Of a DNA stretch of 64,000 nt, positions 21,464 through 55,906 are shown one piece after another. Within the stretch, counting starts at the first letter, position 1. Every line of letters begins with the position of its first letter. The stretch covers positions 124,001-188,000 of the forward strand of contig NZ_JAFIMU010000017.1 of the NCBI RefSeq assembly GCF_017302985.1. The letters are read 5' to 3'. The position numbers were made by a program, and so were the translations under genes. Below the pieces are notes generated by a model. That model saw only the letters and a program-made list of their open reading frames with translations. It ran no database searches and was not told where the DNA came from. The stretch is from Corallococcus macrosporus. GTDB lineage: Bacteria > Myxococcota > Myxococcia > Myxococcales > Myxococcaceae.

Positions 21464-21635
21464 CCGTGCCTGGGAAGGTGGGGACGGATGGCCTCTTCGG
21501 CCAGGGCGGGCGGGCAGGCGGGCCCTCGGCGCCTTCGTGCCGGGGGCCTGTGGGACGCCGGACATTCGCGACCCGCGCGAGCAGGGGGGACGGGTGGCTG
21601 GACGCCTGGGGCGTGCGCATCGTGCGCCCTTGAGC

Positions 21636-23681
21636 GTGCCTTCCTCTGATACCGCCATCACCGCACTGTCGGGCCTGCTCTCGGACGAGGGCGAGCGCAT
21701 CACGCGCCTGTGGTCCAAGCGCCTGCGCGCGGAGACGTATGAAGTGGAGGTGCCCGGCCGCGACCTGCGCGCGCCGCTGCGGCACCTGCTGGATGAGCTT
21801 GCCCGCCTGCTCGAGAGCCGGGGCGAGGACGCGGTGCGGCTGTGGCCGGAGGTGGTGCGTTCGCACGGAGCCTTCCGGTACGACCAGAACTTCGAACCGG
21901 AAGACCTGACGCGCGAGTTCAAGTCGCTCCAGGAGGTGCTGCTCTACGTCTACGCGCGCCGCAACGGAGGCGTCATCGACGCGGACGTCGCGGAGCTGGT
22001 GTCGGAGCTGGTGTGGGAGGCGGACGCGTCCGCGCAGGCCTCCTACGCGCGCGTGCTCAAGACGGAGGAGGTCCGCTTCCGCGAGGCGGCGGTGATGGAG
22101 TCGGTGCTCAACCACGTGGAGGTGGGCATCCTCCTGGCGGAGACGGATGGCATGGTGTCCTTCGCGTCGCCGCCGGTGAGCCGCCTGATGGGCGTGCCCA
22201 TGCGCGCGGTGGTGGGCGCGCGCGCCGCGAGCACGCTGGGCCCGGTGCTCACCCAGGTCAACGCGAGGCACCCCACCGGCGAACCCTTCAAGGTGCAGGA
22301 CATGCCCTTCCTGCGCGCGCTGCGCGAGAAGGCGCCGGTGCGCGGCGTGATGATGCAGGTGGAGCGCCCCGGCGGTGGGGATGCGACGCTGGAGATGAGC
22401 GCCACGCCGGTGTGGGAGGAGGACCACGTCCTGGCGGGCGTCATCCAGACCTTCAGCGACCGCACCGAGGCGGCCGTGAAGACCAAGGCCCTGGAGAACG
22501 CGCACGACGAGGTGCGCAGGCTCCAGGGGCAGCTCTTGCGGCGCACCCGTCAGCAGGCGCTGGGGCAACTGGCGAGCGGCGCCGCGCACGCGCTCAACAA
22601 CTTCCTCAACGTGCTGCGGCTGCGCATCACGCTGCTGCAGCGCGAATACAAGCCGGAGCACGTGGACGCGCTGGACAGGACGGTGCGCCAGATTGGCGAG
22701 TTGGTGGCGCGGCTGCAGGAGTTCAGCGTGCAGCGCACCGAGGAGCGCCTGGGCAACGTGCCGGTGGACCAGACAGTGCGCGAGGCCCTGGAGCTGGCGC
22801 GGGGCGAGCTGGAGCAGCGCGAGCACCCGGTGCACACGGAGCTGGACCTGGGCTTCCCGTGGGGCGTGAAGGCGGATGCGGGCTTCTTCCGCGAGCTCAT
22901 CGTGAACCTGCTCCTGTCCGCGAGGGACCGGATGGAGGGCGGCGGCACGCTGGTGGTCCGCACGCGTCCGGCCGGGGAGGCCTGGTTGGAGATGCGCCTG
23001 GAGGACGGCGGGCGGCCCTACGCGCAGGACGAACTGGCGGGCCTGTTCGACCCGCTTCGCCGGGATCCGGGGGCGCCGCAGTTCTCGCTGTTCCTGGCGG
23101 TGGCGCGCACGCAGGTGCAGCGCTGGGGCGGAGAGCTGACGGTGGAGAACCGGCGCGACGGTTCAGGCGCGAGCTTCATCATGAGGCTGCCGCGCTACAG
23201 CGACGTCTCGGCGGGAGCGCCGCCGTCGGCCATGCAGCCGATGCCGCACACGCCGGGAGGTGTGCCGCGCCTGCCAGCGAGAGCGCGCCGGGTGCTGGTG
23301 GTGGACGACGACCTGGACAACGCGCGGATGATGGCCGAGGTGCTGGGCGAGGAGGGCTACGACGTGCAGGTGGCGCACAGCCCGGAGGTGGCCCTGCGCA
23401 TCTGGGAGAAGCATCCGTACGACGCCGCGCTGCTGGACGCGGTGATGCCGGAGATGACGGGCTGGGAGCTGGCGCGCGAGCTGCGGCAGCGCACGCCCCA
23501 GGCGCTGCTGGCCATCGTCACCGGCATGGACGTGCGAGGCCAGAACCGGGCAAGCCTCGCGCAGGTGGACGCCGTCTTCCGGAAGCCCATCGACGTGGGA
23601 GCCCTGGACGACTTCCTCTCGCAGACTCGGGGAGAAGAAGAGGTCGCCGAGGAAGTCAGTCCGCACGACGCGACGCACTAA
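21636..23681 (+). CDS. RsbRD-N - PAS - histidine kinase - receiver hybrid protein
   Basis: About 681 residues from a GTG at 21636 (a TTG at 21630 is possible; neither has a strong ribosome site). Residues 1-140 resemble the RsbRD N-terminal sensory domain of stressosome proteins (LLSDEGERITRLWSKRL). A PAS-like domain follows (about 160-290: ILLAETDGMVSFASPPVSRLMGV). The histidine box is AAHALNNFLNVLRL, of the HxLNN type, near residue 320. The HATPase_c is divergent: the N box reads ELIVNLLLSARD, lacking the usual Asn, and the G boxes are weak (DGGRPY). A C-terminal receiver (about 550-660) has VVDDD, DAVMPEMTGWE with acceptor Asp, and KP. ATP binding is therefore doubtful while the receiver looks intact. 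Confidence 0.82.
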   Translation: MPSSDTAITALSGLLSDEGERITRLWSKRLRAETYEVEVPGRDLRAPLRHLLDELARLLESRGEDAVRLWPEVVRSHGAFRYDQNFEPEDLTREFKSLQEVLLYVYARRNGGVIDADVAELVSELVWEADASAQASYARVLKTEEVRFREAAVMESVLNHVEVGILLAETDGMVSFASPPVSRLMGVPMRAVVGARAASTLGPVLTQVNARHPTGEPFKVQDMPFLRALREKAPVRGVMMQVERPGGGDATLEMSATPVWEEDHVLAGVIQTFSDRTEAAVKTKALENAHDEVRRLQGQLLRRTRQQALGQLASGAAHALNNFLNVLRLRITLLQREYKPEHVDALDRTVRQIGELVARLQEFSVQRTEERLGNVPVDQTVREALELARGELEQREHPVHTELDLGFPWGVKADAGFFRELIVNLLLSARDRMEGGGTLVVRTRPAGEAWLEMRLEDGGRPYAQDELAGLFDPLRRDPGAPQFSLFLAVARTQVQRWGGELTVENRRDGSGASFIMRLPRYSDVSAGAPPSAMQPMPHTPGGVPRLPARARRVLVVDDDLDNARMMAEVLGEEGYDVQVAHSPEVALRIWEKHPYDAALLDAVMPEMTGWELARELRQRTPQALLAIVTGMDVRGQNRASLAQVDAVFRKPIDVGALDDFLSQTRGEEEVAEEVSPHDATH

Positions 23682-23719
23682 CGGGTGGGAACGTTCCAGG
23701 CCTCCGCCCGAAGCGCCCC

Positions 23720-24089
23720 AACCTGTCCGGCAGTCAGACAGGTTTCCGCAGTCCAGCGGCCCTCCGGCTCCTGAGGCGAGGTGCCCCAAACTGGTCCGAC
23801 AGTCGGACCAGTTTCCATGGCCCAGTGGTCACAGGCCCCGGGGCGAGGTGTTCCAAACCTGTCCGACAGTCGGACAGGTTTCCGCAGTCCGGTGGTGCCC
23901 CAGCCTCCGGGTTCGGTTCCTCAGACTGGTCCGACAGTCGGACAGGGTTCCATGGCCCGGTGGTTACGGGCCCCAGGGGGCGCGGTTCTTCAAACCTGTC
24001 CGACAGTCGGACAGGTTTTAGCGGCCGGACTGGAGTGGGCGCCGCCAGGACCCCAGGTCTCCAAACGGGTCCGACAGTCGGACAGGTTC
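23720..24089. repeat. Array of six regularly spaced palindromes (locus 1)
   Basis: Six dyads are centred at 23732, 23801, 23868, 23936, 24005 and 24076, so the spacing is 69, 67, 68, 69 and 71 nt. The full form has arms AAACCTGTCCGAC and GTCGGACAGGTTT around a central A (perfect at 23855-23881 and 23992-24018). A second form has AAACTGGTCCGAC and GTCGGACCAGTTT (perfect at 23788-23814). The copy at 23720-23744 has two substitutions. The copies near 23923-23949 and 24063-24089 are mixed or imperfect. Intervening DNA also repeats: stretches 1 and 3 start TTTCCGCAGTCC, stretches 2 and 4 contain CCATGGCCC(A/G)GTGGT, giving a roughly 136-nt higher-order unit. The array starts 38 nt after the preceding plus-strand stop. 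The 599-nt gap 23682-24280 holds nothing else I can identify. Confidence 0.95.
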
Positions 24090-24280
24090 GTGCGGTGGGC
24101 CGCTGGCGGGCTGTCCCATCGGGGTTCTCATCTTCTCAGCGCCGAGGACGGAGTTCATGTCCCGGGAGCCCTGTCACTCCTTGCCTGGTGCCCGGTGAAG
24201 GAAGAGGCCTCCCGTCGACGCGAGGACGACGTGGATGAACGGCGCTGGGCGCTCCCGGTATGGACCATTAAAGTCCGCTC

Positions 24281-25537
24281 GTGATTTCCCCGGCGGAACT
24301 GGAGCGCCTGCGCCGCAAGGTGGAGGCGGGTGAAGTGCTCAGCGGCTCTGAGCTGGACGCGCTGCGTGCCGAGGCCGCTCGCACTCCCGGGCCCACGCTG
24401 CGCCTCACCCTGGCGCATGCCCTGGTCAATGCGGACGCGGAGCGGGAGGCCCTGCCGTTGATGCAGGCCCTGCGGCGCGACTTCCCCCGGGACCTCCAGG
24501 TGCGCCTGGGCCTTGCTCGTGCGCTGCTGGGGCTGGAGCGCCACCGTGAAGCGGAGGCCGAGCTGCGGGAGGCTCTGGTCCTGAGCCCCGGCGACCCGGA
24601 GGCACTCAAGGTGCTGGCCGTGCTCGCGCTGCGGCAGGGGGAGGGCGCTCGCGCTCGCGCCTATGTGGCGGAGGCCGTGGAGCGTGACCCCTTCGACGCG
24701 GAGGCGAAGCTGCTGCGCGCGGAGCTGGAGGCCGCGGACCTGCCTCCGCCTTCCGTTCCCGAGGAACAGGTGCTGCGCCCGGAGTTCACCGCCGCGCTCA
24801 CCGCCGCGCTCGGCCGCGCGGGGGTGGCCTTCCGACGCCAGGGCCGCGACCTGCTGGTGAAGCTGGCCTCCGGGGGCGTGGGCCGGGTGGACGTGGGCTC
24901 GCTGTATGCCGCCTACCGCGAGGCGCCCGGAGCCCAGGGGCTCACCGCGCACGTGGAGGCGCTGGCCTCCCGGCTGGGCGGGCTGTCCTCCGGCGTGGGT
25001 CCCTCGGGTGTGTCACTGGAGTCGCTGCGCCCCGTGCTGCGGCCGCCGGGCTTCGTGGCGGGGACCCAGGGCGCGCTGTTCCGTCCGGGGCCGGCGGGGC
25101 TGGAGGTCTTCTACGTATTGGAGGACTCGGAGTTCATGCGCTACCTGCCGGCTTCCGCGCTGAAGGACGCCGGGCTCACGCTCGACGCGGTGGACGCGGC
25201 GGCGTGGCACAACCTGGAGCTGCGTCCCGCAGACGTGCGGCCCGTCGTCATTGATCAGGGCGAGGTGCGGCTGGCGGAGGCGTTCTCCGGCGTCTGGGCG
25301 GTGACGGGGGGTGATGGCCACGACGGCGCGCGGCTGCTCACGAAGTCGCAGCGCCGCAGGCTCGATGCCGCCACCGGCGGAGGCCCGCTGCGTGTGAGCC
25401 TGGGCCGGCGTGAGGTGGCGCTGCTGTGCCGCGAGTCGGACGGTGATTCGGTGCGGAGGCTGGCGGCGCTGGGGCACGCGCCGGATGGCGTCCCCGGGGC
25501 GTTCCTGCTGGAAGGTGACACGCTGCGAAGCGTGTGA
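24281..25537 (+). CDS. TPR protein with C-terminal DUF1444-like domain
   Basis: 418 residues from a GTG; the ribosome site is weak. The first 160 residues are TPR-like helical pairs, for example LGLARALLGLERHREAEAELREALVLSPGDPEALK. From about 165 onward the protein resembles DUF1444/YtpQ-type proteins: LEVFYVLEDSEFMRYLPASAL followed by AAWHNLELRP matches the pattern I associate with that family, which is soluble and uncharacterised. A final segment resembles a quality-control or storage-domain tail with HDGARLLTKSQRRRL. It follows the palindrome array and converges head-on with the macrodomain gene, with stop codons directly adjacent. Confidence 0.72.
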   Translation: MISPAELERLRRKVEAGEVLSGSELDALRAEAARTPGPTLRLTLAHALVNADAEREALPLMQALRRDFPRDLQVRLGLARALLGLERHREAEAELREALVLSPGDPEALKVLAVLALRQGEGARARAYVAEAVERDPFDAEAKLLRAELEAADLPPPSVPEEQVLRPEFTAALTAALGRAGVAFRRQGRDLLVKLASGGVGRVDVGSLYAAYREAPGAQGLTAHVEALASRLGGLSSGVGPSGVSLESLRPVLRPPGFVAGTQGALFRPGPAGLEVFYVLEDSEFMRYLPASALKDAGLTLDAVDAAAWHNLELRPADVRPVVIDQGEVRLAEAFSGVWAVTGGDGHDGARLLTKSQRRRLDAATGGGPLRVSLGRREVALLCRESDGDSVRRLAALGHAPDGVPGAFLLEGDTLRSV

Positions 25538-55659: not shown

Positions 55660-55906
55660 AACCTGTCCGACAGTCGGACCAGTTGGGACAGCCGCCAATG
55701 CTGGACGGGAGCCCCTTCCACCCGGGCTGCGGAAACTGGTCCGACAGTCGGACCAGTTGAGACAGCTACCGATGCTGGAGGGGCGCCCTTCCACCCGCGC
55801 CGCGGAAACTGGTCCGACAGTCGGACCAGTTGGGACAGCCGCCAATGCTGGACGGGAGCCCCTTCCACCCGGGCCGCGGAAACCTGTCCGACAGTCGGAC
55901 AGGTTT
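55660..55906. repeat. Array of four regularly spaced palindromes (locus 2)
   Basis: Four dyads are centred at 55672, 55746, 55819 and 55893 (spacing 74, 73, 74 nt). Copies B (55734-55758) and C (55807-55831) are perfect with AACTGGTCCGAC and GTCGGACCAGTT around a central A. Copy D (55880-55906) has arms AAACCTGTCCGAC and GTCGGACAGGTTT. Copy A (55660-55684) is a hybrid with a CCTGT left arm and ACCAGTT right arm. Stretches A-B and C-D between copies differ by a single base, while B-C differs at several, giving a higher-order unit near 147 nt. The array begins 83 nt after the glycosyltransferase stop and ends 45 nt before the stop of the opposite helical-repeat gene. The rest of the 375-nt gap shows nothing else. 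Confidence 0.95.

Follow-up and report, generated by a model that had tools for sequence, protein, structure and literature searches.

A dispersed palindrome of Corallococcus as the probable operator of a multiplied family of FadR-like GntR regulators

What reads the palindromes that stand in a row between two genes of Corallococcus macrosporus, and why are there so many of them? The window analysed here, a 64-kb stretch of that genome, holds two such rows. Our answer is that a lineage-specific family of FadR-like GntR regulators probably uses the palindrome as its operator, and that the palindrome has probably spread as a REP-like repeat along with those regulators. Proteins and sites seem to have increased in number side by side and to have shifted specificity in step. 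The case is built from sequence, that is from position, co-variation, co-occurrence and predicted fold, and from these we infer binding, autoregulation and two dimers per palindrome. Least certain in this explanation is what the dispersed arrays do where they lie, at the 3' ends of genes.

The arrays and their repeat unit

The first-pass annotation described six dyads of 25-27 nt at intervals of 69, 67, 68, 69 and 71 nt, three of them perfect across 27 nt around a central A, and all of this is confirmed; the perfect ones are copies 2, 3 and 5. It also described two arm versions alternating along the array. The alternation holds for five left arms (CCTG, CTGG, CCTG, CTGG, CCTG) but not for six, because the sixth is CGGG and copies 1, 4 and 6 are imperfect. 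A second array, absent from that annotation, lies at 55660-55905 between convergent ORFs. It has four exact cores at 55665, 55739, 55812 and 55886, with spacings of 74, 73 and 74 nt. The features are as follows.

21501..23681, + strand: upstream neighbour ORF, histidine-kinase-like with a receiver domain (named by eye), the anchor for the orthologous site
23720..23744, no strand: palindrome copy 1, CTG type, two arm mismatches
23789..23813, no strand: palindrome copy 2, TGG type, perfect over 27 nt
23856..23880, no strand: palindrome copy 3, CTG type, perfect over 27 nt
23924..23948, no strand: palindrome copy 4, mixed, left arm TGG and right arm AGG
23993..24017, no strand: palindrome copy 5, CTG type, perfect over 27 nt
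24064..24088, no strand: palindrome copy 6, mixed, left arm GGG and right arm AGG
24123..24138, - strand: conserved 'leader' TGAGAAGATGAGAACC at one end of the first array, 55 nt from the nearest core
24281..25537, + strand: downstream neighbour ORF, TPR-like (named by eye), context
55660..55684, no strand: second array copy 1, mixed arms
55734..55758, no strand: second array copy 2, TGG type
55807..55831, no strand: second array copy 3, TGG type
55881..55905, no strand: second array copy 4, CTG type

At up to three mismatches the window holds 14 matches to the core where 9.06 are expected, a number equalled or passed in 7 of 100 shuffles. This count is not striking; the number of exact copies is. 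Regular repeats behind a leader-like sequence might recall a CRISPR-like or integron-like array, but unique spacers would then be expected and the DNA between the repeats of the first array is partly alike from unit to unit. We give this idea almost no credence.

The core, GTCCGACAGTCGGAC (15 nt), is found exactly at 157 places in the 9.81-Mb genome (17 contigs), and the same pattern read backwards at none. From 54 clusters of 1 to 10 copies we took 102 copies with their flanks. They share AAC..GTCCGAC W GTCGGAC..GTT, in which the inner 15 nt are conserved by the selection of the copies, and the central base relative to the flanks is A or T in nearly equal numbers (48 to 54). The arm combination is CTG/CTG in 42 copies, TGG/TGG in 38 and something else in 22. 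The earlier reading of the spacing as 6.5 helical turns does not survive as a firm constraint: spacings in this genome run from 51 to 108 nt and beyond, and a 10.5-nt phase is not significant (p = 0.07). Among 48 spacings below 400 nt, 22 are of 65-75 nt and six, all in one array, are of 108 nt. In 898 kb of the genome a leader like TGAGAAGGTGAGAACC (at most three mismatches) accompanies the core 14 times at a distance of 53-56 nt; elsewhere in the 898 kb there are 3 further matches, each with 3 mismatches. A short palindrome, 157 core copies and the position of 53 of the 54 clusters outside genes (called by script) are all REP-like features.

The regulators and the recognition rule

One gene family directly adjoins the palindrome. 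It does so at 9 of the 54 clusters and always reads away from the palindrome. The product has a GntR-type winged helix-turn-helix (Pfam PF00392, E 7.2e-10, 38.8 bits against a cut-off of 27), and its FCD domain is weak by sequence (E 0.0034, below the FCD cut-off). In the predicted structure (mean pLDDT 83) the C-domain is all-helical and FadR/FCD-like. E. coli FadR ranks 1, 3 and 4 among solved structures compared with this model (TM 0.64-0.71 by target) and is the closest match both alone and with DNA. There are 15 members in C. macrosporus, and members at E of at most 1e-10 occur in 27 of the 145 genomes of the order.

The position of the palindrome before these genes is the first argument that it is read by their products. 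We considered the Corallococcus genes that have at least 250 nt of upstream sequence and a legible residue 28. There are 95 of them in 15 genomes, and C. macrosporus contributes 15 of these genes. The palindrome is within 300 nt upstream in 95 of 95. The nearest copy lies 34-72 nt before codon 1 (median 65), a copy free of mismatch at the fixed positions is present for 82, and the four genomes with a single regulator gene have the palindrome upstream there too. Because each family gene carries it about 65 nt before its start, we believe that each regulator probably has one operator of its own and is probably autoregulated. Further away, in a second genus (g3), four genes have a palindrome at 115-206 nt, altered yet still dyadic. 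One g19 gene (L163) has only a degenerate palindrome, outside the limits used. No palindrome was found upstream of 38 fetched g7 and g8 genes (about 50% identical), one chance match with 5 mismatches aside, or upstream of the g20 gene L169, and the g7 and g8 paralogues share no upstream dyad of another kind that we could find. Two g7 genomes, G078 (L179-L196) and G080 (L199-L212), hold 17-18 dispersed paralogues each without the palindrome, and several of the G080 genes share an upstream stretch like AACCTGTTTCAGGGAAGTCCGGT.

The second argument is the form of the palindrome, which is two overlapping GT-N3-AC boxes. One reads GT-CCG-AC and the other GT-CGG-AC, and 8 bp separate their centres. 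PMC4494728 gives FadR-subfamily sites as TKGT/ACMA boxes, typically with 3 nt between GT and AC. Each 25-nt dyad would then be two overlapping FadR-type boxes, YKGT-CCG-AC and its mirror. It may take two dimers, and dimers of FadR size with centres 8 bp apart would need different faces of the helix. Table 1 of the same source lists Glu 27, Arg 38, Thr 40 and Arg 42 for FadR in its own numbering; the equivalents, by spacing, of FadR Glu-34, Arg-45, Thr-47 and Arg-49 are invariant in 27 aligned members of our family.

The third argument is a recognition rule. PMC4494728 reports that position 28 (FadR Arg-35) correlates with base K, Arg strongly preferring G/C and avoiding A/T. We surveyed 111 genes, of which 11 were unusable (contig ends, fragments) and 100 were scored. 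Arg-28 goes with G at K in 24 of 24 genes (23 TGGT and 1 CGGT, in the fragment L273), though these are not 24 independent cases because operator and gene lie about 65 nt apart and are inherited together. Where residue 28 is not Arg (Glu, Gln, Ala, Lys, His, Tyr, Val), K is T in 71 of 76. The five exceptions are two with G, one with C, one with A and one without a palindrome; at the nearest copy L178 and L233 have CGG, L120 has CCG and L289 has AAG, and L163 has none within limits. A palindrome copy inside the Arg-28 gene L156 is of CTG type, against the rule. On a gene tree built without residue 28 this residue changes 4 times and the base shifts the same way in 4 of 4, while base K changes 6 times, two of them without a change of residue 28. 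The sign test on the 4 independent pairs, one of which is the 54-aa gene fragment L273, gives 0.125. The two arm versions match two regulator specificities as the published contact rule predicts, and the two main copy specificities would correspond to two versions of the DNA-reading residue. Box signature, position and co-variation all fit predicted binding at GT-N3-AC. The first-pass annotation had guessed at a binding array for a dimeric DNA-binding protein, and we consider this guess strongly supported, with FadR-like GntR regulators as the likely family.

The rule can also be followed from genome to genome. Strict TGG-type copies occur in 6 of 6 Corallococcus genomes with an Arg-28 gene (47, 42, 9, 1, 15 and 1 copies) and in 0 of 10 without one (Fisher p = 1e-4, a value that is optimistic because the genomes share ancestry). 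Copies of the other type are present in all of those ten, from 1 to 70 per genome. The single TGG-type copy of G059 is the putative operator of its single Arg-28 gene (9 of 12 genes read), and G067 shows Arg-28 in two gene fragments that may come from a single broken gene. Over the 16 Corallococcus genomes gene number follows core copy number (Spearman 0.91). Within this genus Arg-28 genes correlate with TGG copies at 0.99 and non-Arg genes with other-type copies at 0.94, against 0.28 for Arg-28 genes with other-type copies; any p-values for such co-occurrence share the same optimism. At two of the loci common to C. macrosporus and G068, which has no Arg-28 gene, the former has a TGG-type copy and the latter a left arm of CTG type. 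The g3 genomes are less orderly. G048 fits the rule (Arg-28 gene, 12 TGG-type copies, 0 of the other type), and G043 breaks it: its gene has Gln-28, but its copies are 19 of TGG type and 0 of YTG type. In G044 an Arg-28 gene is present while strict copies of both types are missing. G046 has two strict copies of each, and G047 has 8 YTG-type copies and no regulator gene that was found.

How might gene and operator change together? Paralogues within a genome are mostly 80-97% alike over a stretch that starts near the operator's outer edge and ends near codon 251; for most pairs the search found no match beyond. L068 and L116, at a matching place in C. macrosporus and G057, are 90% alike in a stretch of the tail and what comes after it but only 79% alike in the first 730 nt, while paralogues of one genome reach 97-98%. 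In L063, L068, L116, L120 and their paralogues the sequence between the operator and about codon 251 has become uniform within a genome while the tails are locus-specific, which are signs of concerted evolution. Gene conversion in which operator and reading head are exchanged jointly would produce the pattern, and we offer this tentatively because the pairs are few.

Within the variable C-terminal tail there is often another palindrome, which is read as NLSDCRTG or close to it. At 0-2 mismatches it is present in 9 of 28 genes examined, in the frame of the gene in 9 of 9. In L152, L154, L157, L160 and others it lies at about nt 990-1060 of the regulator gene, and g7 relatives without upstream palindromes have the similar peptides NLSACPTG and NWSACHTS. 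By eye, the dispersed element resembles the 3' coding end of the regulator gene. We tried a 'solo-LTR' origin, in which operator and gene-end palindrome would be left after deletion of the gene: the right flank resembles the gene 3' end and the left flank mismatches the upstream flank of the operator (by eye). We regard this origin as conceivable and do not adopt it.

Spread and location of the dispersed copies

The core is present in 23 of the 145 genomes of the order. It is in 16 of 16 Corallococcus genomes (3 to 157 copies, five of them with only 3-10), in 5 of 6 genomes of g3 (1 to 19 copies), and in one g7 genome (10 copies) and one g19 genome (1 copy). We compared the site of the first array at the ten loci where the two flanking genes could be placed (L001-L010). 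In C. exercitus a single palindrome is present, which aligns as a 62-nt insertion relative to C. interemptor and has no clear target-site duplication. The other nine have no palindrome at up to 2 mismatches, and in seven of the ten loci only a gap of 40-69 nt separates the matched flanks. The first-pass annotation had held that an array absent from close relatives with intact flanking genes, with nothing changed in expression, would tell against function; of these two conditions the absence, at 9 of 10 related loci, is what we find. The same site (window 23682-24280) holds other sequence in C. carmarthensis (2.9 kb, L002) and C. llansteffanensis (1.4 kb, L003). This intergenic spot is a tolerant insertion site. 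Over a 400-kb stretch compared with two relatives about 90% identical, several palindrome loci have a counterpart in the same place in at least one of the two, with differing copy numbers (4, 10 and 6, for example). Some palindrome loci are, to judge from these alignments, old.

A rival view is that the palindrome is an ordinary REP- or MITE-like selfish repeat moved in trans by a transposase, with the GntR genes as passengers or chance recipients. The insertion in C. exercitus, with one palindrome where C. interemptor has none, is what this view expects. So is the sharing of flanks beyond the palindrome, namely the leader at 14 places and partly conserved flanks on both sides, and so is the concentration of copies at gene 3' ends. 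Several g3 copies also sit in a longer element whose inverted ends, AAGCCAG...CTGGCTT, are similar to each other (by eye). That longer element is seen at L308, L311, L312, L316, L321 and L322 (G043, G048), has no clear target-site duplication, and at L308, L312 and L316 begins at the apparent TAA stop codon of a gene (by eye). However, no Y1/RAYT transposase (PF01797) was matched in C. macrosporus with a model that is positive in 5 of 14 control genomes. A selfish repeat also leaves three things unexplained: the near-constant distance before 95 of 95 regulators, the rule that ties residue 28 to the base, and the absence of the strict TGG type from Corallococcus genomes without Arg-28 genes. 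We regard it as possible and do not favour it as a complete account. The element view concerns spread and the operator view concerns sequence, so the two can both be true. We believe that the operator, with some flanking sequence, probably spread as a REP-like element to well over 100 further copies, single or in tandem arrays like the two of this window, and that regulator genes multiplied in Corallococcus, to the 15 of C. macrosporus.

With genes called by our own codon-bias script, the 45 clusters that do not adjoin a regulator are 14 convergent, 2 divergent, 28 tandem and 1 inside a gene, against a background of 188 gaps with 19, 60 and 109 in the first three classes. Of the tandem clusters 24 of 28 lie nearer the 3' end of the upstream gene. 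The dispersed copies sit at gene 3' ends and avoid promoters, and therefore are not ordinary operators. We reject the idea that they serve as promoter operators of neighbouring genes.

A position at 3' ends is just where RNA hairpins would be expected, acting as bidirectional terminators or as 3'-end stabilisers, and the first-pass annotation had raised stacked RNA hairpins at a 3' end as well. The array folds as RNA to -211.6 kcal/mol, far better than shuffles (z -6.4), and the outer arms change together (CT/CT in 42 and TG/TG in 38 of 102 copies). This gives the guess weak support; in 23600-24300 no terminator-like stem with a T run was found. An Rfam search of the window gave no match. Hairpins would also not call for copies before 95 of 95 regulators or in frame within some coding ends, and RNA pairing has no need for an arm type that tracks residue 28 of a regulator. 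The evidence for binding accounts for the sequence, and we find the hairpin explanation unlikely.

A role in chromosome organisation had been suggested too, and would here mean sites of the SlmA or Noc kind read by a repurposed GntR regulator. Many dispersed palindromes for one DNA-binding family would suit this. In one complete relative, G068 (dnaA at 2029666), 29 of 42 loci are in the origin half (p = 0.02). The bias weakens to 23 of 34 (p = 0.06) when the regulator loci are left out, Rayleigh tests give p = 0.06 and 0.18, all of this is from one genome, and five Corallococcus genomes have no more than 3-10 core copies. We think the suggestion improbable.

Returning to the operator reading, our best guess is that the dispersed arrays are protein roadblocks or insulators at gene ends, with titration of the regulator as a by-product. 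A bolder idea, to which we give some weight and well short of belief, is a self-propagating regulator-operator pair, in which the binding site of a FadR-like repressor, having turned into an amplifying or mobile repeat, depends for its spread or survival on the cognate protein, and the arrays are genome-wide bound roadblocks or organising sites rather than promoter operators. If it is true, repeat type and copy number should follow regulator specificity and gene number, genome by genome.

Known systems and meaning

Taken singly, the two halves of this system have precedents: operators of FadR type are known, and so are dispersed palindromes of the REP sort. The FadR subfamily, as described in PMC4494728, shares the winged helix-turn-helix, the FadR-like helical C-domain, the GT-N3-AC boxes, the Arg-28/G rule and an operator just upstream of the regulator gene. 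The paper also reports weaker extra half-sites 7-12 nt from site centres. The Corallococcus palindrome differs in being two full overlapping boxes in one perfect dyad. A single genome moreover has 15 paralogues, each with its operator; dispersed copies number well over 100, and they and the arrays mostly lie elsewhere than at promoters; and some of the genes contain a further palindrome within the coding sequence near the 3' end.

The likeness to REP/BIME sequences and their RAYT (TnpA-REP) proteins lies in short extragenic palindromes in more than 100 copies, single and in arrays, tied to a protein family. The difference is that the Corallococcus partner appears to be a GntR regulator and not a tyrosine transposase, none of the latter having been found in the genome. 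BOX elements have a modular end and a variable number of inner repeats, and are present or absent at a given site. MITEs resemble our element in the same modular end, variable inner repeats and presence or absence at a site. Unlike both, the Corallococcus repeat unit resembles a regulator-binding site, and no transposase is known for it. SlmA and Noc sites are dispersed palindromes for a transcription-factor-like protein; the Corallococcus sites differ in standing in arrays and in having a multi-paralogue reader family with two specificities.

The core sequence was not found in the open-licence literature, and among the open-licence matches listed none describes a family of palindromic repeats whose specificities match those of a GntR regulator present in many copies. 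The main texts of RepRanger 2025 and of the GTAG/CGTC REP survey contain no mention of Corallococcus, Myxococc or GntR.

We believe the value of the finding lies in what it makes accessible. Palindromes of the REP type occur widely, and what they are for has long been asked; to our knowledge the partner protein, where there is one known, is a transposase. In Corallococcus the partner appears to be a transcription regulator whose recognition rule can be read from sequence, and nature has supplied genomes with one gene, genomes with many genes, and two specificities. With such a partner, such a rule and such a variety of genomes, the role of dispersed palindromes becomes testable in soil bacteria that are not pathogens, and so does the way in which a regulator and its operator may change specificity together.
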